Assembly (NCBI RefSeq): GCF_045679555.1
Contig: NC_092122.1
Span: 13,195,043 to 13,259,042 of the forward strand
Reading direction: 5' to 3'
DNA length: 64,000 bases
From: Salvelinus alpinus
Lineage: Eukaryota; Chordata; Actinopteri; Salmoniformes; Salmonidae
Part shown: in pieces, positions 1,902-61,107 of the stretch
How the letters are laid out: every line of letters starts with the position of its first letter
Position numbering within the stretch: position 1 is the stretch's first letter
Notes under the pieces: model-generated
The model's input: the letters and a program-made list of their open reading frames with translations, nothing else
Told to the model about the DNA's origin: nothing
The model's database searches: none
Made by a program: the position numbers and the translations under genes

Positions 1902-4900
1902 ATACAGAATGGTGTCGTCTGCGTAGAGGTGGATCAGAGTTTCACCAGCAGCAAGAGCACCATCATTGATATATACAGAGAAAAGAGTCGGCCCGAGAAT
2001 TGACCTTGTGGCACCCCCATAGAGACTGCCAGAGGTCCAGACAACAGGCCTTCCAATTTGACACACAGAACCATATCTGAGAAGTAGTTGGTGAACCAGG
2101 CGAGGCAGTCACTTGAGAAACCCAGGCTATTGAGTCAGCCGATTAGAATGCGGTGATTGACAGAATTGAAAGCCTTGGCCAGGTCGATGAAGACGGCTGC
2201 ACAGTACTGTCTTTTATCGATGGTGGTTATGATATCGTTTAGAACCTTGAGCGTGGCTGAGGTGAACCCATGACCAGCTTGGAAACCAGATTGCATAGTG
2301 GAGAAGGTATGGTGGGATTCGAAATGGTCGGTGATCTGTTTGTTAACTTGGCTTTCGAAGACTTTAGAAAGGCAGGGCAGGATGGACATAGGTGTGTAAC
2401 AGTTTGGGTCTAGAGTGTCTCCCCTTTGAAGAGGGGGATGGCCGCGGCAGCTTTACAATCTTTAGGAATCTCAGACGATAAGAAAGAGAGGTTGAACAGA
2501 CTAGTAATAGGGGTTGCAACAATTTCGGCGGATAATTTTTGAAAAAGAGGGTCCAGATTGTCTAACCCAGCTGATATGTAGGGATCCAGATTTTGCAGCT
2601 CTTTCAGAACATCAGCTATCTGGATTTGGGTGAAGGAAAATCGGGGGGTGGCTTGGGCAACTTGCTGTGGGGGGTGCAGAGCTGTTGGCTGGGGTAGGGG
2701 TAGCCAGGTGGAAAACATGGCCAGCCGTAGAAAAATGCTTATTGAAATTTTCGATTATCGTAGATTTATCGGTGGTGACACTGTTTCCTAGCCTCAGTGC
2801 AGTGGGCAGCTGGGAGGAGGTGCTCTTATTCTCCATGGACTTTACAGTGTCCAAAAACCTTTTTGGAATTAGTGCTACAGGATGCAAATTTCTGTTTAAA
2901 AAGCTAGCCTTTGCTTTCCAACCTGACTGTGTATATTGGTTCCTGACTTCCCTTAAAAGCTGCATATTGCGGAGGTTATTCCATGCTAATTCAGTACACC
3001 ACAGGATGTTTTTTATGCTGGTAGAGGGCAGTAAAGTCTGGAGTGAATCAAGGGCTATGTCTGCTCTTAGTTCTACATTTTTTGAATGGGGCATGCTTAT
3101 TTCAGATGGTAAGAAAAACACTTTTAAAGAACAACCAGGCATCCTCTACTGACGGGATGAGGTCAATATCCTTCCAGGATACCCGGGCCAGGTCGATTAG
3201 AATGGCCTGCTAGCTGAAGTGTTTTAGGGAGCGTTTGACAGTGATGAGGGGTGTTCGTTTGACCGCGGACCCATAAGGGATGCAGGCCATGAGGCAGTGA
3301 TTGCTGAGATGCTGGTTGAAGACAGCAGAGGTGTATTTAGAGGGCAAGTTGGTCAGGATGATATCTATGAGGGTGCCCATGTTTACGGATTTAGGGCTGT
3401 ACCTTGTAGGTTCCTTGAAATTTGTGTGAGATTGAGGGCATCTAGCTTAGATTGTAGGATGGCCGGGGTGTTAAGCATATCCCAGTTTAGGTCACCTAAC
3501 AGTACGAACTCTGAAGATAGATGGGGGGGCAATCAATTCACATTTGGTGTCCAGGGCACAGCTGGGGGCTGAGGAGGGTCTATAACAAGCGGCAACAGTG
3601 AGAGACTTATTTCTGGAAAGGTGGATTTTTAAAAGTAGAAGCTCGAAACTGTTTGGGCACAGACCTGGATAGTATGACAGAACTCTGCAGGCTATCGCTG
3701 CAGTAGATTGCAACTCCGCCCCCTTTGGCAGTTCTATCTTGATGGAAAATGTTGTAGTTGGGGATGAAAATGTCTGAATTTTTGGTGGCCTTCCTAAGCC
3801 AGGATTCAGACATGGCTAGGACATCAGGTTTGGCTGAATGTGCTAAAGCAGTGAATAAAACAAACTTAGGGAGGAGGCTTCTGATGTTAACATGCATGAA
3901 ACCAAGGCTTTTACGGTTACAGAAGTCAACAAATGAGAGTGCCTGGGGAATAGGTGTAGTACTAGGGGCTACAGAGCTTGGGTTAACCTCTACATCACCA
4001 GAGGAACAGAGGAGGAGTAGGATAAGGGTACATCTAAATGCTATAAGAACTGGTCATCTAGTGTGTAGGGAACAGAGAATTTAAGGAGCAGATTTCTGGG
4101 CGTGGTAGAATAGATTCAGGGCATAATGTACAGACAAGGGTATGGTAGGGTGTGAGAACAGTGGAGGAAACCTTGGCATTGAGTGACAATGAGAGAGGTT
4201 GCATCTCTGGAGGCACCAGTTAAGCCCGGTGAGATCTTCGCATGTGTGGTGGGTGTGACAAAAGAGCTATCTAAGGCATGTTGAGTGGGACTGGGGGCTC
4301 TACAGTGAAATAAAACAATAAGAACTAACCGAAAAAGCAGTAGACAAGGCATATTGACATTAGAGAGAGGCATAAAGCAATCACAGGTGTTGATCGGGAG
4401 AGCTAAGACAACAACGGGTAAATGGCGATGAATGGGCAGAGAGGGTCAGTTAGGTACACACAGGACCCGAGTTTGAGGCTGGGGTCGACAGATTAACAAC
4501 ATGTTAGTGAACAGTCCAGCAGGCATCAACTGTGTAGCCAAGTGATCATAGGGTCCATTGAGCAGCAATAGGTAAGTCAGGGAGCCATTCTGTAGTCGCT
4601 ACTACGCTAGGCGAGCGGGAGACACGGCGTTCAGAAAGCTAGCGGGCCGGGGCTAGCAGATGGGTCTTCGGCGACATCGCAACGGAAAATCCTGTTGAAG
4701 CCACATCGGACGATTACGTCGGCAGACCAGTCGTGATGGATCGGCAGGGCTCGGTGTCGACAATAAAGGGTCCAGGCCAATTGGCAAAAGATGTATTGTA
4801 GCCCAATAGTTAGCTGGTATACATTCGTCGGCTAGCCGGGAGATGGGCCTAACTCGAGACAAGCTCAAGGCTATCTGGTTCTTGCTTCAGGACAGAGGCG

Positions 4901-5346
4901 TTAGCCAGCAATAGCCACTCGGTTGCAGCTAGCTAGTTGCGATGATCCAGTGTAATGGTCCAGAGATTGCGGCAGGAATCCAGTGACGTGGTAGAGTAAA
5001 GCAGTCTGATATGCTTCGATATTCTCTGGGTTGATATCGCGCTGTAGAGACTGGCAGGTATTGACCGAGCTAAAGCTGGCTGGTGTCCGAGCTAAAGGTG
5101 AAGACCGCTAGCAGTGGCTAACAATGACTACTAACTCGTGGCTAGTTAGGTGGCTAGCTGCTGATGGAGGTTCCAGTTAAAAGGTATAAAAATAGCAGAT
5201 CTGTACGACATTGGGTGAGGCGGGTTGCAGGAAAGTATATTTAGTTCTTAGATGGATAGTGAGATTAAAATATATACGAAAAAAAACGAGAAAGACTATA
5301 TACACGGGACAAGACAAACACACGTTCGACTGCTACGTCATCTTGG

Positions 5347-5750
5347 ATTTAACAAGATGTCTAAACATGTCTAAACATGTTTACATGTCTAAACAAAAGA
5401 CTCCACTTCGCCATATGAATGCATGACCCATCAAGATATCCAGGTGATTACGGCCATCTATTGTATTTCATGAACATGTGTACTGTACATGTCTAGACAA
5501 TAGTGACCCATCCACTTAGCTAGATGTTGCTGGGGGAGTGGCTATAGCATTTCCTTCACATGACCCATCAATTTAGTGTGTAAGCGTAATCTAAAAATTA
5601 CCAAAATGTATAACATATTTTTATCTGGACACTTTTTTTTGTGTTTACCAGAGACGGTAATGTGAAGAACAACATGACCTGCATCAAAGTTAGATCAGGA
5701 TATAGGCCAAGGACTAGATGAAGTGTATTTTTACCGAGTTTTTCAGTATT
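5347..5750. other. Spacer, no gene seen
   Basis: AT-rich sequence between the LINE 5' end and the galnt8 5' flank. It has a few tandem copies of TCTAAACATG at 5359-5392. I see no coding potential or recognisable repeat family. Confidence 0.4.
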
Positions 5751-5754
5751 GTAG

Positions 5755-6085
5755 GCTACTACTTTTAGTATTGAAATCTTTGGTTGTTTACTAAACTACT
5801 TACTCCGTTTAGCATGTCTTCACATTAGAATCCTTAAAGAGACGGGTGCGGCTAAGGCTTAAGAGGGTGTGAACATTGCTGAACAGGTGTTGGCAAAGAA
5901 GAATTGTCTAGTAGATGGACAAGGGCCATTTTCTTCAAAGTTGATCAACTTTCAATGCAGAATTACTTTCGCATTGTTCCTCAACTGCAGTGTATGATAT
6001 ACCATTTTCTAGCACTGAGTCTCTACTTTTATATAATGTAAAAGACACAATAAAAAAACTTTACAACATAAAACTGAATTGAGGC
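5755..6085 (+). repeat. 5' flank of galnt8 copy 1, duplicated at 18845-19190
   Basis: The stretch from ATTGAAATCTTTGGTTGTTT through ACTGAATTGAGGC matches 18850-19177 at a moderate level with small indels. Shared words include AATCCTTAAAGAGA, CTTAAGAGGGTGTGA and ATATACCATTTTCTAGC. In copy 2 this flank lies upstream of a galnt8-like first exon, so here it is probably the 5' flank of copy 1. Confidence 0.7.
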
Positions 6086-6539
6086 TGTAACGATTGTCCT
6101 AGGGATTAGGTAGTAGGGATTGGACCAAAGCGCAGCGTGGGAATTAGACATAATGAATTTATTTAAATGATAGACGAACACGAAACAACACTTGAGAATT
6201 TACAAAATAACAAACGCAGTCAACAGACCTGAACAAACGAACTTACATGACACGAAGAACGCACAAACAGGAATACACAAACGAACAAACGAAACAGTCC
6301 CGTGTGGTGCAACATACACAGACACGGAAGACAACCACCCACAACAAACAATGTGAAACCACCTACCTTAATATGGTTCTCAATCAGAGGAGATGAAAAC
6401 CACCTGCCTCTAATTGAGAACCATATCAGGTCATCCATTAACCAACATAGAAACACATAACATAGAATGCCCACCCACACTCACGCCCTGACCGACTAAC
6501 ACATACAAAAACAACAGAAAACAGGTCAGGAACGTGACA
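6086..6539 (-). mobile_element. Solo LTR with 5-bp target duplication
   Basis: Runs TGTAACG...GTGACA on the plus strand, that is TG...CA ends in either reading, flanked by the exact direct repeat GAGGC at 6081-6085 and 6540-6544. It belongs to the same family as the LTRs at 60581 and 63361; shared words include TATGGTTCTCAATCAGAGG, ATTGAGAACCATATCAGG and ACAGGTCAGGAACGTGACA. There is no internal region, so this is a solo LTR left by recombination. The paralogous site near 19173 lacks it, so it is younger than the duplication. Confidence 0.9.
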
Positions 6540-6968
6540 GAGGCGGTCGGTCACATTTGTTCTCAATTAAATAAAGGATTTAAATTAACAAATAAAGGAT
6601 TAGATCAAATCTATAAAATATGGCTAATAATCATTTTAGAATGTTCTTTAATCCTGCATACTGTTGTTTGTTATTCAACATGTGTTACATTTTGATCTAC
6701 CAACTTCTGTGTGCCAAAATTTGCCACATTGTTTACTTTTACAAATTTACAACAGTTACTTCAAGGTAATCCTCCAAGGCAGAACAAACCTTATTAATCA
6801 ACTTTAAAAAAAAATCAAATGCAAACAGTAGTTATGTAAATGAGGTCATAATCTGTGTGTATCAAAAGGAGTGACTTTCATTGATTCTGGCAGCCTTAAA
6901 CAATCTGAAATACACAGAAATAACCAATTAAAGATAGTTTGATGAAATGCTGTCAATTGTGTCCACAG

Positions 6969-9900
6969 TAAAGTCAGTCAACAACGGGATCATTCTGAAA
7001 GAGGGGCAGGCTGTGAAGGCTACCGAGGTCAAGAAGGAGAGGAAGGTGGTGAAGAAGTTGTACCCCAACTCAGCTCTGTTTACAAGCTGGGGTGATGAGC
7101 TCTCAGAGGAGGAGCAGAAAGAGGCAGAGGAGCTGTTTCAGATGTATGGATACAACGCCTTCCTGAGTGACAGACTACCCCTGAACAGGGAACTCCCTGA
7201 TACTCGCGATCCTAAGTAAATCTTTTTCCTCATCTCTCTGCCACCTCTACACAAAAAATGATGGATAACTCAAGACTTCTGAATTCTAACCAGTCTGTTC
7301 CATTGTGCTCATCCGAGGTCAAATCTATCTCCAGCACTTTTAATGCAATTTGACAAATTACATTGAAATGGCCGAACTTTAAGAGTGAAACAGCAGCTTT
7401 GGTGAAGTGACTGAATGATATGAGGTAGACCAAATGTTTTTGTTGTGTCTGTCAGGTGTGCTAATCACCAGTACCCCCATGACCTGCCCACCATCAGCGT
7501 GGTGTTGATCTACTTGGACGAGGCCCTGTCAATCATCAAGAGAGCTGTCCGCAGCATCATAGACAAGACCCCCCAACGCCTGCTCAAAGACATCATACTG
7601 GTGGATGACCACAGCTCCAATGGTTCGCCTAATTTGTCTATGCTCTCCGCTTAGAAACATTTGAAAGTATATTTGAACTCAAGTGTGGCTTTCAACTTTT
7701 GTTGTGTACCAATGATTTGCAAGTGTCTGCTTTCCCAGAGGACCTAAAGGAGAAGTTGGGTGCCTACATCAGCTTCATCGATGAAGAGCGTCCGGGCCTG
7801 TTGAAGAGAGTGAGACACCTGGAGCAGCTCGGTCTCACACAGGCCCGCCTCTCAGGGTGGAGGGAAGCTGAAGGAGACGTGGTGGCCATCTTGGATGCCC
7901 ACATAGAAGTCCATGTGGGATGGTAGTCTGAATGGTTTATATTATAAAGACACTCAGTGATATTTTTTTGAGTCTCCTTTAACACAATGTTTTCCCTCTG
8001 TGTTTCTGTGAACAGGGCGGAGCCTCTGTTAGCTCGGATAAAGGAGGACCGCACGTTGGTGTTGTCACCGGTGTTTGACAAAGTCCATTTCGATGACTTG
8101 ACAGTCACACGTTATTGGCCGAGTGCACACGCCTTTGACTGGGCCCTATGGTGTATGTACGAGTCCTTCCGACCTGAGTGGTATGCCTTAAAAGATGAGA
8201 CACAGCCAGGAAAGTGAGTTGTTTGTGATTTCATCATCAGAGGATAGTCCTGTTTCACTAGTCTGTTTGAATAGGCTATATGTAAAGCACAGCTTTGGGA
8301 GGAAAATCTTACCTAATATTTACACCGGTATTGTTATTTTGCGTTATCTATTCATTAAAATGAATGTCACGTCTCCCATTTTAGAAATGACCATGATTTG
8401 TTGTGTATGTTTGCCAGGAGCCCCTCCGTTATGGGCATACTAGTGGTTGATCGCCTGTTCTTTGGGGAAATTGGTGCTCTGGATGGTGGTATGAAGATCT
8501 ATGGAGGTGAAAATGTTGAACTGGGCATCCGGGTAAGCCCCTCTGCTACAGTTTATGAATGAATGTTAGAAATCAAAGCAGACTTGTGTTTGCAGAATTG
8601 CTTTCTGTTCTTGAGTCGTTCATTTTGAACAAACCAATCTACGTCCAACATCCAGACACTTCAGTCCATATCTATAAACTCGTACTTGTCTCTTGGTGTT
8701 TGGTGTGTCTAGGTGTGGCTGTGTGGTGGAAGTGTCGAGGTCATACCTTGTTCTAAAATAGCCCACATCGAGAGGAACCATAAACCCTATCTCCCAGACC
8801 TGAGCTTTATAATGAAGAGGAATGCTCTGAGAGTGGCTGAGGTCTGGATGGATGAATACAAACATAATGTCAACATCGCCTGGAACCTCCCACTGAAGGT
8901 ACTGTACACAACAAACCATTCAAAAAGTAGGTTTTGTTCAGCTGCTCCTATGGAATAACAATCATCGCTGTTATGCATGCTTTGTGTTTGAAAATAAGTA
9001 GACTAGACAGTCACTATTATAAAATGGTCTATTACTCAATGCCATAATAAAGATCATAGGATCTATGTAAAATGATGGCGGTAAGCCATCATCAAGTGGA
9101 TAATAGGTGGATTGCTCATATAGCCTGTGTTTCTGATTTAGAAACCTTCCTCTTTCTCACCACAGGATCATGGCATAGACATTGGGGATGTTTCAGAGAG
9201 GAAGAAGTTGAGAAAGAGTCTGAACTGCAAACCCTTCCAGTGGTATCTGGACAATGTGTATCCAATGTTAGACCCCCTGGGTGACTTGCTTGGTTATGGA
9301 GCTGTGAGTGATGCTAAAATGTTACTGTTGATTTGGAATGATTTCCTCACCAACTATGTTTGGTGCATGGCATTCTTTTTTCAATAGGATGCAGGGTCAT
9401 AAATCCAACTCATTATCATGATAGGAATTTGCACTTTTATAACTGTTTAATCTGTGTTCATAAAATCAACAGCTGGTCAATGACCTGAAGATGGATCTCT
9501 GTATAGATCAAGGCCCAGTTCCGGGGAACACACCTATTTTACATGGATGCCATTATTTTGATCCACAGGTTTGTAGAATCATTGCTTAGTATTTTAGAAT
9601 TTAACTAGTGGTATAATATGGTCCATCCAATAGCAGAGCTGGGATTCAACCCATACCACAATGCAAAGTACTGTCAATACCACATATACAGAAAAGTCTA
9701 AATATCTATCCTCTCTGTCCAGAACTGTTATTATCGAGCCAGCGGGGAGATCTACATTGGAGGCATCAAGTCTCACAAGTACAACAGTAATCGCTGTCTG
9801 ATGGACATTGGCACTCGAACCCCAGGACTGTATGAATGCAAGGAGGCCAAGCAGAAAGGATTCCACATGCTCTGGGAATTTCAACAGGTAAGCACTCCAA

Positions 9901-10137
9901 CATGAAATAGGGAAATTGATGCCTATAAACTGTTGGAAACATAGGAGATGTCTTTGACTTTAGTGTGATGTTGTATAGTGGAATGTTTGCTGTGTTTTAC
10001 AGGGAAAAGCCATCCAGAACAGACAGACAAAGAGATGTCTGGAGATTGCCCCAGGGGAGGACACTTCCTACCAGCTCATCATTCAGGAGTGCAGTGGGCA
10101 GCACTGGTTAATACGGAATGTGATAAAAGACTTCTGA
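6969..10137 (+). CDS. galnt8: Polypeptide N-acetylgalactosaminyltransferase 8-like; 5' exon missing
   Basis: Transfers GalNAc from UDP-GalNAc to Ser/Thr in the Golgi lumen (mucin-type O-glycosylation). Ten exons splice in one frame: 6969-7215, 7456-7622, 7739-7922, 8016-8213, 8418-8532, 8713-8898, 9166-9303, 9473-9568, 9723-9887 and 10003-10137 (stop TGA), about 542 residues. Visible: GT-A domain start ([29 protein letters not shown]), the metal-binding DxH as DAHIEV, VGWAEPLL, the [17 protein letters not shown] block, then a ricin-type lectin domain from [20 protein letters not shown] to [22 protein letters not shown] and [11 protein letters not shown] favour GALNT8 over GALNT9/17/18. Family members have about 630 residues; the missing start is the cytosolic tail, signal anchor and stem. 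The first visible exon begins at phase 1 after TTGTGTCCACAG. The donor at 7623 (GTTCGC) is weak. Confidence 0.88.
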
Positions 10138-10196
10138 TACACTGAGATAGTTAGGCCTACTGTACCAGAGACAATACAGTGGGACTATATGAGTTA

Positions 10197-10596
10197 TGCT
10201 GCAATCATAAGCACGTGGGAAGGTGGTATTTACATACAATTGGTAAAAATCCACTTGAACACCCCTCCAACTGGTAATTACCAGTGGGAAACTCTGGGAA
10301 ATTACCAGTGGGAAACCTCTGACGTCACCTACTAAGGAAATTACCTTTTTAACAGTATTTTCAATAGTTAAATGCAACAACAAAATATTATTTACACAAA
10401 GTTTTTTAACACTATCATTTTTGTACAAACATGATAGCTGTACTTATAGTTTATGGTTGACGCAGCTTGTTGGTCATTAGCCAATCTGAGTTTCTCAACG
10501 AGTTGATAGCACGTGAATACATCCAACTGATATTTACGACTTCACAACTGGTAATTACCACCTTCCCACTTCTTTATGAACACAGCATTGTCATTA
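10197..10596. mobile_element. MITE with inverted ends inside the galnt8 3' flank
   Basis: Roughly 400 bp that is absent from the paralogous flank, where GAGTTAT at 20999 joins directly to CATCATGCTTTG. The ends are inverted copies: ATAAGCACGTGGGAAGGTGG near 10208 mirrors CCACCTTCCCACTTCTTTAT near 10559, and both continue into GGTAATTACC-type sequence. No coding capacity. Confidence 0.75.
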
Positions 10597-10737
10597 CGCT
10601 TTGAAAAGCCAATCAGTGGTCAGCAGTGAGATGACTGTGTGATCTTAGTGAGCTGCTGGTTGGACAATGGTTTCTTCACAGAATGTGGAATGCTATTGAG
10701 CTGTGTTGTCCTTGGTCCTGAATGTAAATGCAGAGAA

Positions 10738-10745
10738 ATAATAAA
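10738..10745 (+). terminator. Poly(A) signal region of galnt8 copy 1
   Basis: An AATAAA in GAAATAATAAATATGATTCC lies about 600 bp after the stop codon. About 400 bp of that distance is an inserted MITE. The same AATAAATATGATTCC is kept in the copy-2 flank near 21169. Confidence 0.5.
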
Positions 10746-10848
10746 TATGATTCCTGTATTTACGCTCATTTGTGGTTTGTTATTGATTCACTGTAGATTT
10801 TCACCAAAGAGGGTCATAGAATATTTTTCTGCATTGACATCATATAGT

Positions 10849-11418
10849 GTGGTGGCATATTTCTGCATTAACAAATAAGGAGAGCTACAAACTTCACACA
10901 CCAGTCAGAGTTATACTTAAACTACATCTTTAATAATAAGAGCTTTGCAATAGCATTTTTGACTTTCAATGATGCGCTAACTCTAATGAACCATTGAAAG
11001 TGACCACAGAAAAGTACAAAGATCTTTTATAGCCAAGATACACCCCTCTCAACCTACATGACGAACCACAGATCTTAGGAACTCTTCACAACGGGACTTT
11101 ATAATTGAGAAAGGAGTATCCCTTAGCCAGATAACATTAGCTATAAATTATCGCTCAGTTTGGTCCATAAGACGAAGTTCTAATCTCGTTCCTGGTACTT
11201 CATAGCACAGAACCATTACCTCATCCAATCTGGAATGCTTTTTAGGTTTAACACCCAAAGACATCGTAAATCTCCTCTGTCAGTGCTATCTCATAGAGGC
11301 CCATCCTCAGTGGAACACACACATACAATAGTTAACAGAATACTCTATTCTGTCGAATAAAACAACCATTATATTGTAATACAAGCATTATAACATAATC
11401 TTGCAATTTTCCACGACA
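10849..11418. mobile_element. LTR-like insertion of about 570 bp, absent from paralog
   Basis: Copy 2 reads continuously ACATCATATAG-AGCTGAGTTGAC near 21276; here these halves are separated by about 570 bp beginning TGTGGTGGCAT and ending CCACGACA. The TG...CA ends and lack of coding sequence suggest a solo LTR, but I cannot see a clean target duplication, so the class is tentative. Confidence 0.5.
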
Positions 11419-11543
11419 AGAGCCGAGTTGACATCAGTGTAGTTTTGAAGGTCCCGTCCTCGACTGCTCTATGAGCTCTCAGAGATGAACTTATCCCATG
11501 GATGGCCGGCCCTCTCTCTTACAGCTCTGGTGGCAGGGAGTTA

Positions 11544-11701
11544 TACAGTGCATTCGGAAAGTATTCTGACCCCTTTACTTTTACCACATTGATAAGTTAC
11601 AGCCTTATTCTAAAATTGATTAAATCGTTTTTTTCCCTCATCAATCTACACACAATACCCCATAATGACAAAGCAAAAATACATAGTTATTCAGACCCTT
11701 T
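11544..11701 (+). mobile_element. Truncated Tc1 terminal fragment
   Basis: TACAGTGCATTCGGAAAGTA followed by TCTACACACAATACCCCATA and TTATTCAGACCCTTT is the left end of the same Tc1 family as the copy at 35943-37879. Only about 155 bp remain; it then passes into TTTACATTTACATTTAAGTC, a short teleost-wide repeat word. Confidence 0.8.
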
Positions 11702-11761
11702 ACATTTACATTTACATTTAAGTCATTTAGCAGACGCTCTTATCCAGAGCGACTTCAGTAC

Positions 11762-12960
11762 TGTCACGTTCTGACCTTAGTTTCTCTTTTATGTCTCTAT
11801 TTTGGTTTGGTCAGGGCGTCAGTTGGGGTGGGCATTCTATGTTTTGTTCTATGTTTTGTATTTCTGTGTTTGGCCTGGTATGGTTCCCAATCAGAGGCAG
11901 CTGTCAATCGTTGTCTCTGATTGAGAACCATACTTAGGTAGCCTGTTCCCACCTGTGTTTGTGGGTGGTTGTTTCCTGTTTTGTGTTTTGTCACCTGATA
12001 GGACTGTTTCGTTTTTTCGCCTTTGTTATTTTTGTGTTCAGTTTAATAAATTTAACATGGACACGTACTATGCTACATTTTGGTCCGATCCTTCATACTC
12101 CTCATCAGAAGAAGAAGAAAATCGTTACAGAACTACTCACCACAAACGGACCAAGCAGCGTGGTAACAAGGAGCAGCGCGATCTGGAGAAATGGACATGG
12201 GAGGAGATATTGGACGGCAAGGGACCCTGGGCACAGGCTGGGGAATATCGCCGCCCCAAAGAAGAACTGGAGGCAGCGAAAGCTGAGCGGAGGCGATATG
12301 AGGTAAGGCAGCACAACAGGCACGAGAGGCAGCCCCCAATTTTTTTGGGGGGAGGCACACGGGGAGATTGGCGGAGTCAGGCGATAGACCTGAGCCAACT
12401 CCCCATGCTTACCGGAAGAAGCGCAGTACCGGTCAGGCACCGTGTAATGCGGTCAAGCGCACGGTGTCGCCAGTACGCGCTCATAGCCCGGAGCGCTATA
12501 GGCCAGCCCTTCGCAAGTGCCATGCGAGAGTGGGCATCCAGCCAGGGCGTATTGCGCCGGCTCTGCGTGCTGTGTCTCCGGGGTGCTGGGAGGGTGCAGT
12601 GCGCCCTATGCCTGCGCTCCGCCCGTGACGGGCGAATGTGGGCATTGAGCCTAAGGGAGAGGTGCGAGTGGTATGCACCAGATCTCCAGTGCTCCCCCAC
12701 AGCCCGGTTCAACCTGTGCCTGCACTCTGGAGGGTCCGGGCTAAAGTGGTCATCCAGTCTGGAAGAGTGGTGCCAAGGCTGCGCACCAGAGCTCCAGTGC
12801 TCCCCCACAGCCCGGTCCATCCGGTGCCTCCTCTACGCACCAGGCATCCTGTAGGTCTCCCCAGCCTGGTGGGTCCTGTGGCAGCCCCACGCACCAGGCT
12901 GTCTCTCCGTCTCCTCCCTCCAGGTTCTCTCTCCAGTCCGGAGCTGCCAGAGCTGCCCGC
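11762..12960 (+). mobile_element. Partial LTR element (5' LTR plus internal part), same family as 60581-63839
   Basis: An LTR occupies 11762-12129 (TGTCACG...CGTTACA). Internal sequence follows, with an open frame that begins within the LTR (about 12056) and codes for FWSDPSYSSSEEEE, YRTTHH, WTWEEILDGKGPWAQAGEYR and a proline-rich tail. These words are shared with the element at 60.6-63.8 kb in the opposite orientation. The 3' half and 3' LTR are missing; homology fades around 12960. This is an old, partial fossil, more diverged than the 60-kb copy. Confidence 0.8.
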
Positions 12961-13560
12961 CTATCCGTGTGTTTACAGCATGAGCGGTTGTGAGTAGATG
13001 CACTTGTTTTGAGATCAAAGCGAGAGCTGTATGTAGCCACGTGTGCACATTGTGTTCATATCTTTTGCTAGTTAGTGAGTTATTAGCCCTGTTATAGATC
13101 ATTTGTTGTGAGCAATAGGGGAGGGATTGCTTTCTACAAGAGCACAAAACATATACATTTCTAGACATCTTTGAAAAGAAGGTCAGGTAAAGAGCTTTTC
13201 TTAAAGGGGCAGTGTTGTATTTTGAGACAGGCTTGAAAAAGCTAAGTAGACAATAAGCAGAGCATAAAATAATTTGTCTTATTCTCTGTAATAATGGTAT
13301 GGAAATAATAATACATTTAATTTGGAAAGTGGTTTCTTGCATCAAACAATATAACAACATTTTCAGTCACCTCCGTGTCTGAAGAACAAGTGGATAAACA
13401 GGTTAATGTCAAGCCCTGCATGTTTTTTCCCCCAAAAGTCTCATGGAATATAGGCCTACATTGCAATGTGATTGGCTCAGTGTTCTGTCACTCATGGGGA
13501 CACTACATCATCGCCAAGTTTAAGTCCTTAGTAAGAGTAGACATCCCAAATTTCAGGCCT
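12961..13560. other. Repeat-like spacer, no gene recognised
   Basis: No host exon seen. It contains segments that look like dispersed salmonid repeats (around 13186-13220 and 13410-13500), but I cannot place them in a family. Confidence 0.35.
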
Positions 13561-14144
13561 TTGGTTCCTGCCATGGAGTCATATTACAAGTGTCCTTTTT
13601 TTAACACCTCCACCACCCCCTCTTCAGAGGACAAATATCTTCGTTTTTTTACAGCTTTTTTGCTACATATACATACATTTTACATCTACATTTTACATAC
13701 ATGGTACTTTTATATAAAGCAGTCACATAACAATAATACATTACCAAACATAAGCTCTTTAATCCCACCCCTCAGCCACTCTCAGCCCATCCCACCTATC
13801 ACCATAGACCACCCTCGTTTGGTTTCCAAGTGCCATATATTTTTCAAATGTGCTGTTTTACATTTTTTTTTACCTTTCTAATCATATATTATCCACAGAT
13901 TGTGAGCTAAAGATGAGAACCTTTCCTACGAGTATTATTATATTATTTATTGATTGACTATGGCTTTCCAAATCGCCCAACAGTGCTTTAGGTTCATTTT
14001 AAGTGCATGTTGTGCTTTTTTAACCATTCCTGAACCTGTGACCAGAAACAAGCTACAAAGGGCCAATACCAGAATGAATGATCTATTGATTCTGTCTCTT
14101 CGCAGCAAAATCTACAGAGCTGAGATTGTTGTATGCCCCATATA

Positions 14145-15536
14145 CACTGCTCAAAAAAATTAAGGGAACACTTAAACAACACAATGTAACTCCAAGTCAA
14201 TCACACTTCTGTGAAATCAAACTGTCCACTTAGGAAGCAACACTGATTGACAATAAATTCCACATGCTGTTGTGCAAATGGAATAGACAACAGGTGGGAA
14301 TTATAGGCAATTAGCAAGACACCCCCAATAAAGGAGTGGTTCTGCAGGTGGTGACCACAGACCACTTCTCAGTTCCTATGCTTCCTGGCTGATGTTTTGG
14401 TCACTTTTGAATGCTGGCGGTGCTTTCACTCTAGTGGTAGCATGAGACGGAGTCTACAACCCACACAAGTGGCTCAGGTAGTGCAGCTCATCCAGGATGG
14501 CACATCAATGCGAGCTGTGGCAAGAAGGTTTGCTGTGTCTGTCAGCGTAGTGTCCAGAGCATGGAGGCGCTACCAGGAGACATGTGGTATGAGGGCCCGA
14601 CGTCCACAGGTGGGGGTTGTGCTTACAGCCCAACACCGTGCAGGACATTTGGCATTTGCCAGAGAACACCAAGATTGGCAAATTCGCCACTGGCGCCTTG
14701 TGCTCTACACAGATGAAAGCAGGTTCACACTGAGCACATGTGACAGACGTGACAGAGTCTGGAGACGCCGTGGAGAACGTTCTGCTGCCTGCAACATCCT
14801 CCAGCATGACCGGTTTGGCGGTGGGTCAGGCATGGTGTGGGGTGGCATTTCTTTGGGGGGCCGCACAGCCCTCCATGGGCTCGCCAGAGGTAGCCTGACT
14901 ACCATTAGGTACCGAGATGAGATCCTCAGACCCCTTGTGAGACCATATGCTGGTGCGGTTCGCCCTGGGTTCCTCCTAATGCAAGACAATGCTAGACCTC
15001 ATGTGGCTGGAGTGTGTCAGCAGTTCCTGCAAGAGGAAGGCATTGATGCTATGGACTGGCCCGCCCGTTCCCCAGACCTGAATCCAATTGAGCACATCTG
15101 GGACATCATGTCTCGCTCCATCCACCAACGCCACGTTGCACCACAGACTGTCCAGGAGTTGGCGGATGCTTTAGTCCAGGTCTGGGAGGAGATCCCTCAG
15201 GAGACCATCCGCCACCTCATCAGGAGCATGCCCAGGCGTTTTAGGGAGGTCATACAGGCACGTGGAGGCCACACACACTACTGAACCTCATTTTGACTTG
15301 TTTTAAGGACATTACATCAAAGTTGGATCAGCCTGTAGTGTGGTTATCCACTTTAATTTTGAGTGTGACTCCAAATCCAGACCTCCATGGGTTGATAAAT
15401 TTGATTTCCATTGATATTGTTCCATTGTTGTCAGCACATTCAACTATGTAAAGAAAAAAGTATTTAATAAGAATAGTTCATTCATTCAGATCTAGGGTGT
15501 GTTATTTTAGTGTTCCCTTTATTTTTTTGAGCAGTG
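14145..15536 (+). mobile_element. Tc1-family transposon, short version with open transposase frame
   Basis: Ends are the inverted pair CACTGCTCAAAAAAATTAAG and its mirror ending TTTTTTTGAGCAGTG, flanked by TA on both sides. 1392 bp. It sits inside the LINE at 13.6-16.8 kb and is therefore younger. It contains one long transposase frame (next entry). Confidence 0.93.
14397..15284 (+). CDS. Tc1 transposase with internal in-frame loss in the DNA-binding region
   Basis: Cut-and-paste transposase of the DD34E class. 295 codons are open from 14397; the likelier start is the internal MRRSLQPTQ (about 14442). N-terminal helix-turn-helix [20 protein letters not shown] is followed directly by GMRARRPQ and then the catalytic domain: LYTDESRF (D), [11 protein letters not shown] (D), [13 protein letters not shown] (E). 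Full-length relatives are about 340 residues; from memory, around 60 residues covering the second DNA-binding subdomain are absent between RYQETC and GMRARR, yet the frame is kept. All three acidic catalytic residues are present. Such a protein would probably bind ends poorly, so activity is doubtful. Confidence 0.85.
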
Positions 15537-16770
15537 TATATAGCATTCTGTGGGTTGCAAGAACTTTATATAATAATTTTAATTGAAAAACTCTAAGTGT
15601 TGAATCATGTGTAGTTTTTTTGTACCAGTTCATAAACCATGTGCCATGGAATTGGTACATCAAAAATCTCCACCCATTTATTTTGCAACCTGTATGGCAC
15701 AGCTGTCAACATGTTTGTCCTCAGATGAAACTGGTATATTTTTCTATTTATGCCAGTTCCTTTCAGCCAATTTGTATCTTTAATATATGGCAGGCAATCA
15801 AGTTTCCTACCTTCTCCCTTTTCCACTTGCCTCCTTCATTTTTGTGGTAATGCTGCAATCAGTTGGTTGTAAATTTGGATTGAGCAGATATTCCCATGTA
15901 TTTTCGTTAACTGCATATGTGACATAACTCCTCCGTTTCTATTCATAATATTATTAATAAATATAATACCATTTTGGAGAAAAAAAATCCATAAAGAATG
16001 TTTTTTAAATTAATCCGTATATTAGAGTTTAACCATAACATTTGTTGTAATATTTGTTTTAACTTTTCTGGAGGATAAAACCAAAATTGTAACCAGTTTT
16101 GTATGGCTTGTTTAAGAAACAGCGATACTTTAAACAAAATTTCATTTTCAATTAGTTGAAGTTGTTATCTATATGAAGGCAAAAAGTCAATTTTAGAACA
16201 AAGGATGAGCCTTTCTTAATAATCTACTGGAGAAGAATTTTGGATTTAAGTATAACTTATGTATAAGTGAAGCTTTTAGTGAGAGGTTTATAACTTTAAT
16301 ATTTCATAATTTTAGCCCCCACAAACTCATATTCATTATATAAATAGGGATGTTTAATTTTGTCTGGCTTAGCATTCCAATTTTAATAGCTATCAATTCA
16401 ATGGCCACAATAAATAGATATGTAGACAACGGACAGCCCTATTTTACTCCTCTTAAAAGCTCAATACTTTCTGAGAAGTAACCATTATTTACTATTTTAC
16501 ATCTGGGGTTGCTGTACATAACTTTAACCCATTGTATAAGAGATTTTCCTAAATTAAAGTTATCCGGGCATTTATATATAAATTCTAGTCGTACTTTATC
16601 AAACGCCTTTTCAAAATCTGCTATGAAGACCAGGCCTGGTATCTTCGATGTTTCATAATGTTCAATTGTTTCAAGTAATTGTCGTATATTATCTACCAAA
16701 ATGTTAACTTTTTTAAAATTATGAACACAACAAATACAAAAAACAGAAATAAACAAACAAGAGTACATAA

Positions 16771-17190
16771 ACCTGCAGACATTTGCTCATCTCCCGTTCT
16801 GCACACACGTGTTCACATTTTCCGTCTGTTGCCTGGATCGCAGTCATAGTTATTTTCGTTATCAATAATAACTTTGGAGATGTGTGCGTTTCTATCAAAG
16901 TAAGTGCCTTAATTACATTATAATAGTTTCTGTATGTCGTGTTATACCGTTTCTACTGTAGCTCACTGTGTATAGAGCATGAAATATTCCTTATAACCGC
17001 GGACACGCGAGGTAACGTTACTAATTTCATAACCTTTATGGTGTTATATTCAGTCATACTTATGTAGCTAGTTACATTCTATTAGCTCAGTAAAAAGATG
17101 CTAATTGCATCAGAGAAGTATTGGCTTGTTGTATTTTGAAGCTACCCTGGAAAAATGTAAAAATATCTTCTTATACTACTTGGTCGTTTT
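16771..17190. other. Spacer, no gene seen
   Basis: AT-rich sequence between the LINE fragment and the piggyBac relic. No exon, repeat end or RNA gene recognised. Confidence 0.35.
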
Positions 17191-17194
17191 CTGA

Positions 17195-18025
17195 GTGCAT
17201 TCCATAAAGCTGTTTATCATGTCCGCCTTATCCACTGCCCCCATTTTGAGGTTATAGTCAAGCACGCAGTCTGGTTTGATCTTTCTCTCTACCGTCAGGT
17301 GGTCCACCTTGCCTGTGGCCGACATGGTTGCTGTATGGACAGTGGAGAGGACATGGATGTCTCGTTTGTCATGCCACTTTACTGCCAGCTGTTGACATTT
17401 CTTATTTTGTATAACATGTCATTTAGGATGGCAGTAGCATTGTTGATGAAATGCAGTCTTGCGGAAATAGGGTGGCGAAGAAGGGAGTTGCAAACATAGG
17501 ATCTGTGCTCCAGTATTCTCTTAGGGAGTTCTTCTTTACTATCCCCATGAGAATGACTATCACCAGGAAGGTATATATTTCACTAATTGTGGTTGTCCCC
17601 CGCCACTCCTGGCTCTCTCTTCTTCTGTAGCTCCAAGGCATAGCAATGGGTCTCTGCTATGTCTCCCACCAGCTCCTCTGTCAGAAACAACTTGAAGCAC
17701 TCTGCCTCAGATGGAAATGGCAAGGGGCGTTGCACTCCAGACTGGGACTCAAAGCAAACAGCAGGGCCAGGAGGGGTGAAATGGCTGGCAGCTTCCAGCT
17801 ACCACAGAACTCCTGTACTTCATCCATTGTCGGTCTGCCTCCATCACCACCAGCATCTTCAAAGGGAACTGGGACTTTGTCAGTGGTCAAGGGGTCCTCA
17901 GATTCATGGTTCTCAATGGCTGAGGGGCAGCTCCTCACTGTCAGAACCTGATTCCTGACTTTCAGACTCATTGTCAGAATTTTTGAAAATCTCGTTATCC
18001 CTTTCATGCCCTGCCTCCAGTCCAC
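17195..18025 (-). mobile_element. piggyBac transposase relic (PGBD-like), minus strand
   Basis: Three separated parts keep piggyBac order when read on the minus strand. The first is an acidic N-terminal region at 18025-17681. The second is the start of the DDE domain at 17641-17423 (FLVIVILMGIVKK, LREYWSTDPMFATPFFA). The third is a C-terminal part at about 17390-17200 reading KIKPDCVLDYNLKMGAVDKA after a TGKVDHLT motif. The central catalytic block is missing and stops occur, so this is a dead, internally deleted copy. No TTAA ends located. Confidence 0.75.
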
Positions 18026-18027
18026 TT

Positions 18028-18680
18028 ACTGATATCTGAACAAGAGAGCCTCATCGAAATTGAAACAAGCGGTTCTGTGAAAATAGAATTTAATCAGAAG
18101 CCACTGCCAGATTTCTGGATTTGGCTGCGCTCAGAGTATCCTGCCTTAGCAAATTGCGCTGTTAAGACACTAAATGCTCTTTGCAACCACATAGCTTATG
18201 TGAGAGTGGGTCCTCTGCCCTCGCTAGCATGAAAATCTAAATACGGGCACAGACTGTGCGTGGAAAATGATTTAAGACAGACTCTCTCCAATACAACCCA
18301 ACATTTCAGAGTTATGTGCATCATTTCAAGCACACCCTTCTCATTAACCTGTGGTGAGTTATTCACAGTTTTCGATGAACAAATAAGGTTTTAAATGTAA
18401 TATAGTTAAATAAAGCGCAAAATTATTGATTGTTTTTATATTATTATTTTTGCCCTGGTCCCATAAGAGCTCTTTGTCATTTCCCACGAGCAGGGTTGTG
18501 ACAAACTCACACTCATTCTTATGTTTAATAAATGTATTGTGTAGTGTGTGTTGGGCAGGCTTACAATGATGGCAAAAAAATACATTTTAGAGTGCGCTGA
18601 CCCTGGGGCCAGAGGCAGTACGCAGCTGCAGGTTGAATGTTTGAAGGGGTACGGGACTATAAAAAGTTTGGGAACCACTG
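18028..18680 (+). mobile_element. hAT (ZBED5-like) transposase 3' relic
   Basis: Plus-strand reading from about 18030 gives QESLIEIETSGSVKIEF, LPDFWIWLRSEYPALA and VENDLRQTLSNTTQHF, matching the C-terminal dimerisation region of ZBED5/SCAND3-like hAT proteins. An in-frame stop occurs in the middle. The 3' end TTTGGGAACCACTG at 18667-18680 is the mirror of the CAGTGGTTCCC start typical of this hAT group. The 5' portion is lost. Confidence 0.7.
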
Positions 18681-18844
18681 CTCTAGTAGAATGCCCTGCT
18701 TTTGTTTCTACACACTCACAACCATAAGCTATTTTCTATAATTAGCTCGTCATTAACTTAAATAATGATATTGTTGTGAGTTTCCTGTAATAATGAATGA
18801 CAACTGTATACAGACATGTTGATAGACGTAGTATTAACCAGCCT

Positions 18845-19190
18845 TTAGTCTTGAAATCTCTGGTTGTTTAGTACACGACTGTATTCACTGTTTAGCGCAT
18901 GGCCTCACATGTGAATCCTTAAAGAGATGGAACTTAAGAGGGTGTGAAAGACGTTGAATGGGTGTAGACAGAAGAGCTCTCCAGTAGGTGTAACAAAACA
19001 TTCCACAACCATTTTCTCAAAACTGGGGTTTCAAGTTTATCAACTTTCAAAGCAGAATTACTTTTCCAGTGTTTCTCAACTGGTGTGTATTATATACCAT
19101 TTTCTAGCTCTAAGTCTACTTTTATCCACTGTAAGAAACACAATTTCACATTTTGCTACATAAGACCAAATCGAGCCGGTAGGTCACATA
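18845..19190 (+). repeat. 5' flank of galnt8 copy 2
   Basis: Paralogous to 5755-6085 and on to about 6560. It carries an uninterrupted version (GAGCCGGTAGGTCACAT at 19173) of the site where the solo LTR 6086-6539 sits in copy 1. Confidence 0.7.
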
Positions 19191-19643
19191 TTTAATTTAG
19201 AGTTTGTGTAATACACGTGATTTCCAGTGTTCTGTTTGTAACACTTGGGTTGATGGTCACTAGACTAGAGGCTGTATGTTATGGATTAAACTCATAACTG
19301 CTGATATGGTTGACGGCAGACTGGAGGTACAAGGACAGAAGATACACTGATTATTATTGTATTGTGTGAAACACTGTGATTCTGTAGCAGCTGACAAGGT
19401 CACTGCCTTTTGACTTCCTACAAGCCTCTTGGGCTATTATTTACAGATGTGGTATCATGATTAGGATACAAGGGTGTTTCCAGAGAAGGCCAGTGAGACA
19501 TGTTCTCTGCTGGAGGTTTCTCTCTGTTGCAACCTTAAGTAAAACAAATAGATTTTTGATTTTTGATTGACTATCTGCGACTGCTCTTCTCTTTCTTCAC
19601 TTGGAACTTTCTATTACATCGCCCCTCCCTCCTTTCAGGCAAG

Positions 19644-19912
19644 CCTGGATCTCAGTGAGAGAGGAAGGAAATCCTGTCTGTATCCCCAGGCTGAGCGCTC
19701 ACACACAGAGGGACGATGAGGCTAAGCTGGGTTCGAGGGCTGGCTTCTTTGCTGGCCATGGCCGTTGGAATACTCTAAATCACATCCATTAAGCGGGAGG
19801 TTCATTCTCATGGGGAAAGACTGCAGACTGCAGGCCCATCAGGATGACTCGGTCAGGGGCCAGGACATGCTCAAGAGGCTGGAGAAGATGGAGGATCACA
19901 TCGAGGAGCTGG
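19644..19912 (+). pseudogene. galnt8-like first coding exon, broken (copy 2)
   Basis: After the strong acceptor CCCTCCCTCCTTTCAG an ATG at 19716 reads MRLSWVRGLASLLAMAVGIL, a type II signal anchor as in GALNT proteins, then hits TAA at 19776. The following residues continue in another frame as LQAHQDDSVRGQDMLKRLEK and MEDHIEEL, a stem-like helix, up to a GTGGGT donor after 19912. The exon ends at phase 1, exactly the phase with which the first visible exon of copy 1 (6969) begins. I infer this is the signal-anchor/stem exon of a tandem galnt8 copy; one stop and one frame change make it non-coding. No other exon of this copy was found. Confidence 0.7.
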
Positions 19913-19933
19913 GTGGGTATCAATCTCCTAAAT

Positions 19934-20110
19934 CTAAAAGTGCTGTGAAAAAGTATTGGCCCCCATTCAGATATTCTCTATTTTTGCATATTTTTGATAC
20001 TAAATATTATCAGATCTTCAAAAAAAAACTAATATTAGATAAAGGGTACCTGAGTTTACAAATAATACAAAAAATTGACACTTGTTTTATTTACTTAATT
20101 AAGTTAAGTT
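19934..20110 (+). mobile_element. Tc1-type terminal fragment
   Basis: GTGCTGTGAAAAAGTATTGG followed by AT-rich sequence resembles the left end of a Tc1-derived MITE common in teleosts. Right end not located. Confidence 0.45.
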
Positions 20111-20369
20111 ATGCAACTTAAAGTTCTAAAACCAAGAAATCAATTTATAATATAGCTCTTCCGTCTCCTGTAATTTGAAAAAACAAATTTGAATTGAATA
20201 ACATAAATAAAATGCTCTGTTACTCTTCACTCTTAGTCTCTATCCAACAATGACACCAAGCTTCTCAACACATATAACCCCCATAATGCTCTGTGGCACA
20301 ACTCCACACACTAGGTTCATTCTCTGATCCTAATTCTATGATTGGATGGACAACATGTCAGTTCATATT

Positions 20370-20974
20370 GCTAAAGCTTTGATTGGTTGGAGGAAGTCCT
20401 CCGGAAGTGGTCACAATTACCATGTATGTCTATGGAAGGGGGTGAGGCCTACGAGCCTCCTAGGTTTTGTATTGATGTCATTGTAGCCAGAGGAGGACGG
20501 AAGCTAGATGTCCTCCGGCTACACCATGGAGCTACCCCAGAAAGTGCTTTTGAAGTTACTTTAGACCTTCATTGCAAAACATTGTATTTTAATAAATTAT
20601 TTGGTGACATATGAATATATTTAGTAGAGTTTAGAGGGCAAGTTGGTCAGGATGATATCTATGAGGGTGCCCATGTTTACGGATGTAGGGTTGTACCTTG
20701 TAGGTTCCTTGAAATCTGTGTGAGATTGAGGGCATCTAGCTTAGATTGTAGGACGGCCGGGGTGTTAAGCATATCCCGGTTTAGGTCACCTAACAGTACG
20801 AACTCTGAAGATAGATGGGGGGGCAATCAATTCACCAATGGTGTCCAGGGCACAGTCGGGGGCTAATAACAAGGGTCTATAACAAGCGGCAACAGTGAGA
20901 GACTTATTTCTGCAAAGGTGGATTTTTAAAAGTAGAAGCTCGAACTGTTTGGGCACAGACCTGGATAGTATGAC
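20370..20974 (-). mobile_element. Repeat remnant joined to a LINE endonuclease fragment
   Basis: 20370-20625 looks like a dispersed salmonid repeat of unknown class. 20630-20974 matches 3335-3680 of the first LINE nearly base for base (same minus orientation, endonuclease region: LLLKIHLCRNKSLTVAACYR). The LINE fragment stops at a short overlap with the galnt8 3' flank, so it marks the breakpoint of the deletion that removed exons 2-11 of copy 2. Confidence 0.75.
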
Positions 20975-21425
20975 ACTGAGATAGTTAGGCCTACTGTACC
21001 AGAGACAATACAGCGGGACTATAGGAGTTATCATCATGCTTTGAAAAGCCAATCGGTGGTCAGCAGTGAGATGACCGTGTGATCTTAGTGAGCTGTTGGT
21101 TGTACATAGCTTCATGGGGACAGATTTACATTCTTCACAGAATGTGAAATGCTATTGAGCAAAGAAAGAATAAATATGATTCCTGTATTTACGCTCATTT
21201 GTGGTTTGTTATTGATTCACTGTAGATTTTCACCAAAGAGGGTCAGAGAATATGTGTCTGCATTGACATCATATAGAGCTGAGTTGACATCATTGTGGTT
21301 TTGAAGAAGTCCCGTCCTCGACTGCTCAGGGATTTCTCTATGAGTTCTCAGAGATGAACTTATCCCACATCCTCTGCCACATGGCCAGCCCTCTCTCCTT
21401 CAACTGTGATGGCAGTGAGCTATAT
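20972..21425 (+). repeat. 3' flank of galnt8 copy 2
   Basis: ACTGAGATAGTTAGGCCTAC at 20975 repeats the sequence just after the galnt8 stop codon (10140). Homology runs on through AATAAATATGATTCCTGTAT, TTTTCACCAAAGAGGGTCA and GTCCCGTCCTCGACTGCTC to about 21425, matching 10138-11543 of copy 1 but without that copy's two large insertions. Confidence 0.85.
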
Positions 21426-21657
21426 CTATGGTAGAGTCGTGGTTACTAGGTCATATAACTACAACTTTGTCAAACATACTTTTCACGACTACAAATTAAG
21501 CAGTTGTTAATCTCCGAACCCAATCACCCATACGCTAGCTAGCTATGTTAACAGCCATGAGAGATGAAACACTTATTATCCAGAGCAAACAGAGGTAATA
21601 CCATAGAGATACATGAAGTACTATTACATTGAAATTCTCTAAACAACTCTTGACCAC

Positions 21658-24222
21658 CTTATGGAGTTGATGGCCAGCTCCTTGAGAGTGCCCAGGTTAG
21701 CCCTCAAGCCACCGATGCCCACAAACACCTCATAGAAGTCATAGGAACGCTCAGTGGTCCCAAACAGGGACGGGTCATCAGAGCTGACCACCATGGGGTA
21801 GCCCTCAGACATCAGCACAGCTGCAGGGTGGTTCCTTAGGTTGGACACAAGCTTCAGCACCTGGTCATTGACACACAAGGATTCAGGGACGTCAACACTG
21901 ATTTAACTCAATGGACTAATGACAACTGACACAGAGAAATCTAGAGTTACAGTTAAGATTAACTTTACTGTCATCAAACTGAAATACCCTACAGTGCAGC
22001 TTTTTTATTTAACCAATGGGAATTTGTTAATATTATGATGAGTACTGACAGACAATATGGCATTTACCTGGTTTGAGATGGGGCATACTTCCACAGCCAC
22101 GTTGTCTTTCATGGAGAGCTCCTTTGCCAGTGGGTGGTGTGCCAACGCATACCCATTGTCACGACTTCCGCCAAAGTTGGTTCCTCTCCTTGTTCGGGCG
22201 GCGTTCGGCGGTCGACGTCACCGGCTTTATAGCCATCGCTGATCCACCTTTCATTTTTCCATTTGTCTTGTCTTGTTTTCCTACACACCTGGCTTCAATT
22301 CCCTCAGTATTAGACATGTATATAACCCTATGTCCCCCCCCCCTAACACCCATGCCCAATTCGTGTGGTGTTGAACAGTAGGGCATCCAGAATGTTTTCA
22401 TCCACTTCAGTGCCTTCATGGTCTGCAAAAGTATGAATGCGTGCACACACACACACGTTATACTATAAGTGCATCACAATAATGTGTATATACCGTAGAT
22501 TTGTTTTTAAAACACAATTGTTTTAAATCAATCATCCTATGCTTGCCAGTCTCTCCTGCATGAAAGAAGTATGGCAGCGTGACTCCAAGCTCTGCAGGTA
22601 GAGAGCTTGCCAACCTAAAACCACAAAAGAACAGTTCACTTTAAAACGTATGTCGAATAGATGCAATGTAATAAATAATTTTGTAAACATTGTATTAAAT
22701 CATCATCATTCTGTATTTATTTTCAGTAATGAGTGGGCATAATGATTGGTTCTACCCCTCAAAAGAATTCTCACCAGGTCGAATCCTGCAACGAACTCTG
22801 GGAAATCCTTCTGCATCTGAATGGCCTCTTTTACAGCTGCTTTAACATCAGACACACTTAGAACCCTAAGGTGCACACAAGGGCAGTGCCAATCATTCTA
22901 TTGTTTCCATTGCAACATGCTAGCTCAGTCAAGCACAGATAGAGTGTCCGAAATGATTATAAATAGTATTTGTCTGTACTGTACCTAGGGACAGAAATTA
23001 TGAGTTGAGCTCCCAGAAAGCCAGGGTGTTCAGCCACAAACTGGTGAGTGCCTTCCTGATAAGTCCTCAAGGACCAGGCTTTATCATGGATGCTCAAAAC
23101 ACATCACCAAAAACCCTTGGGGGAAGAAAAAAATATAGCTATCTAAAATAGCCTAGGTAACATGTAATTCCAGCCCACTACATTTCCCAATATACTTTCG
23201 ATTAAGGCCCACAGTACTAACCCTTGATAGCTCAGTTCTTAGTTCCAGGTACATGATGTTGTCATGAAACAGCTGTTCTAAGCCCTTGTAGAGAAAGTCT
23301 TTAAACACAGGAGCGTAGCTGACCAGCCCAGCTATGGCCACGAATGCCATCTCAAACCTCTCCCACACTGCATCTTGGCTCGGGTTGGTATTGTTTGGAT
23401 CATCAGTGGACAGTGTGAGGTTTTGCATCAAGCTGGAAAAACTTCCAAAAAGACAAACTACCCTTCCATGAATAAGAAAGTTGTTTTTGCTACTACATGT
23501 GTTCATTCACAGACGCCTATTTGTATTGCTTGGCTTTGATGATATAGTGGACTACCTGTAGTCAAAGTCTGTAGGATACGCCATGTTGGCTCTCAAGGTC
23601 TTCAACAGTTGCCAGTAGAGGCAGTCCCAGGTAGAGAAGACAAACCGTACAGACCTGCCCCATGTGAAGCAGATGTAACAATGGGGCCTGTATGTGATGT
23701 TCTTCACCAGCCAATCAACACTCACCAGGGATAAGCTGTGGATGTGGAGGGCTGCCCCTGTGACCCAGCATAGAGAATGTACTAACCGTAGTTAAATCGA
23801 TGGTAAACATTTGTAGGGAGGTGGGACTGTATTACTGTGTTACCTTTGGGCATTATTTGCAGCAGGCTAAAGATGGGACTCCTATGGATGTGGCGCCGTG
23901 CCTTGAAGAAGTGAATGGCAGGAGGGAACTGGGCTACAGCCATCTCTTGTTCTTTTAGCTTGTGAAAATGTGTGTCGAGCTGCTGCTCTGCCCCTGTCAA
24001 CTGTACACGGCCTCCTGTCTGCCTGGGGTCCTCTTGGTGCAACATCGTCTCCCTCTGACTGGGGTCAGGGGTCCCGCCGCATACTGTCACACAGCACATC
24101 ACAGCTGCCAACTGGAGGGTGATGGTATAGCTCCCTCTAGAGGGCAAAACCACCTTGTCCTGCAGTGTCATTGGAGGTTGGAAGAAGCGGCTGTGGAAAT
24201 CCTTCTTGAGGAGGCCACTCAT
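21658..24222 (-). pseudogene. ada2: Adenosine deaminase 2 (cecr1)-like gene, probably dead
   Basis: ADA2 is a secreted deaminase of adenosine and 2'-deoxyadenosine. Exons on the minus strand: 24222-23844 (signal-like ITLQLAAVMCCVTVCG, then FPPAIHFFKARRHI, LLQIMPKG), 23758-23556 (YRPHCYICF), 23432-23222 (GLVSYAPVFKDF), 23092-22985, 22865-22775 (FPEFVAGFDL), 22610-22540 (LPYFFHAGET), 22422-22068 ([17 protein letters not shown], then EVCPISNQ) and 21860-21658 ([23 protein letters not shown]). Signs of death: a solo LTR splits the 22422-22068 exon; the metal/substrate motif HLHD reads HIHS; the exon ending in HAGET lacks about 14 family residues, does not join in frame and has a GC donor; the 23092 exon does not join in frame; the last family exon is not seen. 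The start codon is uncertain (24222 or 24171). Confidence 0.82.
22157..22348 (+). mobile_element. Short solo LTR inside an ada2 exon
   Basis: TGTCACGACTTCC...CTAACA with TG...CA ends, flanked by the exact direct repeat CCCAT at 22152-22156 and 22349-22353. The sequence (TGTTCGGGCGGCG, GGTCGACGTCACCGGC) is a familiar salmonid LTR, from memory about twice as long when complete. Only this LTR is present; no internal part. Orientation is given as read and is tentative. Confidence 0.85.
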
Positions 24223-24547: not shown

Positions 24548-26055
<1,508 letters not shown>

Positions 26056-26059
26056 TATA

Positions 26060-60500: not shown

Positions 60501-60580
60501 TCCGTTCAAGACAACTGGGAATACGGAAACGAAATAAGCTCTGACTGGGAAAAATCGGAACATCGGTGATCTTCAGATTG

Positions 60581-61063: not shown

Positions 61064-61107
61064 GAACCCCCCCCTCAAGGTGCGAACTCCGTGCGCACCC
61101 CTAAAAC

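Follow-up and report, generated by a model that had tools for sequence, protein, structure and literature searches.

In all likelihood, the window cuts through an array of five galnt8-type units, in which copy 1 is the complete unit D with its first exon at -5260, copy 2 is the pseudogene unit E, and the units arose by tandem duplication. The first-pass annotation had read copies 1 and 2 as having kept opposite halves of a gene. That reading is refuted in this assembly, as copy 1 is complete once the upstream sequence is included; the complementary halves are an appearance created by the edge of the window, with a dispersed repeat adding to it.

The window is the whole 64,000-nucleotide stretch of DNA presented here (G000:C37:13195043-13259042). 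Window position p corresponds to G000:C37:13195042+p, and zero or negative numbers lie before base 1. The span analyzed is 224 kb, comprising the window, 80 kb upstream, 50 kb further upstream, and 30 kb downstream, with a local homology cut-off of E 1e-4; the genome searched has 2,367,770,401 bases in 928 contigs.

The five-unit array

The array consists of five head-to-tail units: (i) A, a pseudogene, (ii) B, intact, (iii) C, for which the first exon was not found, (iv) D, which is copy 1, and (v) E, which is copy 2. The two tandem copies originally described both exist, as members of this series of five. Relatives of the copy-2 first exon lie at -5384..-5030 (95.3%), -62035..-61681 (95.8%), and, more weakly, -81330..-81063 (84.5%), sets of exons 2-11 lie at -48.2k and -31.8k, and a decayed set lies at -79.8k. 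Head-to-tail order and sequence identity argue for the origin of units A-E by tandem duplication.

Judged by its sequence, unit A (-81.3 to -72.5 kb) is a pseudogene, with frameshifts in exons 1, 2, and 11 and a fused and shortened exon 4-5; no match to exon 6 was found in this unit. Unit C (-31796..-28651) has intact exons 2-11 and is the sole unit with such a set and no assembled first exon, exon 1 having no match for it in the 224 kb. The only runs of N in this span are -41231..-41132 and -11636..-11537 (100 N each). Left of the former, the sequence agrees at 97.8% with the 3′ spacer that follows unit C; right of it, the sequence matches unit D intron 1 at 93%. Since both sides match in this way, the first exon of unit C is expected inside the assembly gap at -41231. 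At the second gap, identical stretches of the A-B spacer are matched from both sides (around -13932..-6748, G000:C37), with an offset of 2739 bases; two contigs may overlap here without having been merged, which would make this a false duplication.

Two 100-N gaps within the array, together with the doubled spacer match at -11.6k, are what would be expected if the assembly had collapsed or misjoined parts of a larger array into some of the units, copy 2 included. Such an artefact is improbable. Unit E lies in gap-free sequence. Its exon 1 region differs from that of D by 17 and from that of B by 15 changes in 370 sites and has its own stop and insertion, and therefore unit E is not a duplicate contig of either. 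The five-unit array, with its two pseudogenes, is a case of ordinary tandem duplication and pseudogene decay.

Zebrafish carries tandem galnt8 genes (the galnt8a/galnt8b series). The present array is alike in having neighboring galnt8 copies on one chromosome and differs in having five head-to-tail units, at least two of them complete and one internally deleted. Titles and abstract openings, in a coverage that leaves most subscription journals outside, gave no paper on galnt8 arrays in salmonids or zebrafish. One of these literature searches yielded only a cattle association study. In the text of a loach genome paper (PMC9893644), a term search gave no hit for galnt8, galnt, or the name of the enzyme and three passages that mention "tandem", although its index entry counts two galnt8 occurrences.

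Unit D, a complete gene

Copy 1 had been described as ten exons at 6969-10137 without a signal-anchor exon. The ten exons are borne out: their splice sites are standard and they share a single open frame. The missing exon is missing inside the window only, whose left edge lies about 5.3 kb too far downstream to include it. The features of unit D are:

-5260..-5068 (G000:C37:13189782-13189974; L009:4740-4932): exon 1 (signal-anchor), 193 bases, intact, upstream of the window
3336..3679, + strand: intron-1 segment, 95% identical to 20630-20975; its right end matches the sequence at the left edge of the deletion in copy 2
6969..7215, + strand: exon 2, phase 1 acceptor
7456..7622, + strand: exon 3
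7739..7922, + strand: exon 4
8016..8213, + strand: exon 5
8418..8532, + strand: exon 6
8713..8898, + strand: exon 7
9166..9303, + strand: exon 8
9473..9568, + strand: exon 9
9723..9887, + strand: exon 10
10003..10137, + strand: exon 11, including the stop codon
10139..11545, + strand: 3′ flank, three pieces of which match 20973-21424

Exon 1 reads MRLGWVRGLASLLAMAAGILYITSIKREVHSHGERLQRAHQDDSVRGQDMLKRLEKMEDHIEKL, without a stop, and is followed by the donor gtgggt at phase 1. Joined in phase to exons 2-11, it gives an open frame of 1824 bases (607 residues and a stop). Unit B has the same layout, with a stop-free exon 1, a gtgggt phase-1 donor, and an 1824-base frame with its exons 2-11. Intron 1 measures 12,036 bases in unit D and 13,481 in unit B. 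The sequence is free of N from exon 1 through exon 11 of unit D, both N runs falling outside. Matching phases and the layout of unit B suggest that exon 1 of unit D would be spliced to 6969 in the ordinary way, across the 12.0-kb intron.

Introns can, as a matter of general knowledge, hold alternative promoters, so that copy 1 might be transcribed from a nearer first exon within intron 1 and not from the exon at -5260. This is very improbable. A scan of -5060..6900 for first exons with a start codon, a hydrophobic stretch, and a phase-1 donor (three common types) gave no candidates, in a search that sees first exons of this make and is blind to those of any other; as controls, exon 1 of D and of B were both recovered, and the reverse complement gave three candidates. 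Moreover, units D and B share 98.65% identity over the exon 1 region.

The protein encoded by exons 2-11 has the GALNT domain order, a GT2-type catalytic domain (PF00535, E 4.4e-17) followed by a ricin-type lectin domain (PF00652, E 4.6e-10). Exon 1 contributes a 17-residue stretch with a mean hydropathy of 1.99, a predicted type II signal anchor. Among solved structures, the predicted product is closest to the polypeptide N-acetylgalactosaminyltransferases (GALNT), the best of 16 solved-structure sequences being the GALNT1 chain 8v9q (E 2.4e-84); the collections searched gave no GALNT8 sequence. The galnt8 label is provisional and comes from the first-pass annotation and from the motifs DAHIEV and YGGEN, which we take to be GALNT8-like.

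Unit E, an internally deleted pseudogene

The features of unit E are:

18000..19181, + strand: 5′ flank; its part 18000-19109 runs collinear (91%) with the sequence preceding exon 1 of unit D, -7112..-5584, and the flank contains a dispersed repeat at 18843-19181
19716..19912, + strand: exon 1, pseudogenised; stop codon 19776-19778, insertion of 4 bp near 19828, donor gtgggt kept
20630..20975, + strand: intron 1 remnant, adjoining the deletion junction
20973..20975: deletion junction, with 3 bp common to both sides; exons 2-11 are gone, 6.46 kb in unit D terms
20976..21425, + strand: 3′ flank

The break in the signal-anchor exon at 19716 was correctly recognized: relative to units B and D, a TAC codon has become the stop TAA, and the 4-bp insertion is likewise new. 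Because of this insertion, the exon measures 197 bases from its ATG, as against 193 in B and D. The phase 1 attributed to its donor holds when the latter half of the exon sets the frame, and it holds for exon 1 of units B and D, which is intact in both. The lack of exons 2-11 in copy 2 is also confirmed: between 10138 and a point 30 kb past the end of the window, nothing matches them at E 1e-4.

Collinearity between units E and D was traced from 18000 (the query start) to 21424, in the following blocks (E, then D). The last three are matches 2-4 of the four found in total when 4500-12600 was compared with 17500-23000:

18000-18363: from -7112
18357-19109: from -6332
19357-20106: from -5584
20267-20362: from -2378
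20355-20632: from -2057
20630-20975: 3336-3679
20973-21031: 10139-10197, 97% (match 2)
21028-21276: 10588-10847, 77%, gapped (match 3)
21275-21424: 11419-11545, 76% (match 4)

The step from 3679 to 10139 in unit D terms spans exons 2-11, and the letters ACA, identified by eye, are common to both sides of the junction. The break at -6748..-6332 (415 bases), with a short repeat flanking both sides, reads by eye as an insertion in D, and that at -2283..-2057 may be another. The only certain loss in unit E is the one that took exons 2-11.

The coding sequence of unit E is disabled, and its intron and flanks are homologous to those of the parent, as in unprocessed duplicated pseudogenes. Like such pseudogenes in other tandem arrays, and with no notable difference from them, it keeps the 5′ flank, an intron remnant, and the 3′ flank, carries a stop and an indel, and has lost a large internal segment. 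In the proposed history, a galnt8-type unit would have been duplicated in tandem to give units A-E. Exon 1 of unit E carries the stop codon and the 4-bp insertion, and the collinearity shows that a deletion of ~6.5 kb, which starts within intron 1 and ends immediately beyond the stop codon of the gene, removed exons 2-11. The 3 bp shared at the junction are as expected of repair by end-joining, which probably closed the deletion.

Repeats mistaken for a 5′ flank

Both flanks of the two copies had been described as duplicated. This is upheld for the 3′ flank, where 20973-21425 matches, and not for the 5′ flank, where the paired sequences share only repeat homology:

5764..6089, + strand: dispersed-repeat copy in unit D intron 1, not a promoter flank; matches 18844-19181 (match 1, 71%, E 9e-42)
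6108..6541, + strand: second repeat in unit D intron 1, also at 60627-61065 and 63400-63839 (82-83%)

The segment 18843-19181 is a dispersed repeat. A genome search with it gave 2931 first-look candidates, and each of the 40 that were scored has an E value of 3.5e-94 or lower. These comprise the query, two sites in the neighboring units on the same contig (-5849 and -62673), and 37 sites on other contigs. It is 84-86% identical to three dispersed copies on other contigs. The segment 5764-6089 is 76-78% identical to three dispersed copies on other contigs (L003, L005, L006); it had no match at three further dispersed loci (L002, L007, L008) in the comparison run, perhaps because only one strand was compared. 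The 71% identity between the two segments is lower than the identity of each to dispersed copies, so their likeness, though beyond chance, is repeat homology. Since 5764-6089 is 98% identical to its intron-1 counterpart in unit C and 71% to the copy-2 flank (18843-19181), the two "flanks" are separate insertions. The true counterpart of the copy-2 5′ flank in unit D is -7112..-5584 (91%). Within the 224 kb (E 1e-4), the three pieces of the 3′ flank have matches at the five units only, and this flank is not a dispersed repeat within that span.

A reciprocal loss, in which copy 1 lost its promoter and exon 1 and copy 2 lost exons 2-11, fits what is seen inside the window, where copy 1 has no first exon and copy 2 no exons 2-11, but has a negligible probability: at -7112..-5068, copy 1 has an intact exon 1 preceded by a 5′ flank, no gap separates these from exon 2, and the matched "5′ flank" is an intronic dispersed repeat. 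The pair was accordingly rejected as a candidate case of reciprocal half-loss, copy 1 not being without promoter and exon 1. Of the history first proposed, tandem duplication and the copy-2 loss of exons 2-11 stand, and the deletion of promoter and exon 1 from copy 1 falls in this assembly, both lying 5-7 kb before the window. The first-pass annotation had itself named two observations that would speak against it: that copy 1 has a distinct, intact first exon in another assembly, or that the flanks prove to be a dispersed repeat. In substance both were made, the exon lying beyond the window edge in this very assembly and the repeat being the 5′ flank.

Divergence among units B, C, and D

For the pairs B-C, B-D, and C-D, exons 2-11 differ by 19, 26, and 25 changes in 1631 sites, and introns 2-10 by 36/1515, 40/1536, and 53/1515. 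Fisher P values for exon versus intron substitutions are 0.014, 0.061 (not significant), and 0.0005, respectively, for pairs that are not independent. Indels number 0 in the exons versus 3, 2, and 3 in the introns, a difference that is not significant (P 0.11-0.24). The dS values are 0.0145, 0.0233, and 0.0203, and the dN values 0.0102, 0.0134, and 0.0142. The resulting dN/dS of 0.58-0.70 means that constraint is weak or that the copies are too recent to show it. Taken together, these comparisons weakly suggest some constraint on the exons of B, C, and D.

Neighboring features

Two element copies, at 278-1906 and 24551-26061, are 90-91% identical and have open frames that we take to be of the Tc1/mariner transposase type. 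A similar open frame lies at 49875-50926 (minus strand), and another type at 54266-55351. Downstream of copy 2, at ~21600-24220 on the minus strand, is exon-like sequence presumably resembling adenosine deaminase 2 (ADA2/CECR1). Adjacent open frames at 45284-46033 and 48044-48490 share the stretch MTYQKM.RALRNY.R.GEI.KV..KLTYQF, which we assume to be ETS-domain-like, perhaps from tandem spi-type genes. At 61108-63372 (minus strand), a 754-residue open frame has long runs of short repeats (CPAPSEPSV, ELPYS, EQPEPSASH) and lies near two 97% identical repeat copies (60579-61063 and 63361-63839).

Implications

The near-identical coding sequences of B, C, and D and their dN/dS of 0.58-0.70 leave room for a speculative and rather unlikely reading, in which the array would be of recent origin, with a copy number that is still in flux, may be diversifying glycosylation capacity in this fish, has A and E as discarded units, and gains and loses exons by unequal exchange. 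More generally, a window edge and a dispersed repeat can together give the false impression of complementary gene loss. Locally, the array illustrates how a gene for mucin-type O-glycosylation has expanded in tandem and decayed in one fish, and it is useful for correcting the gene models there.
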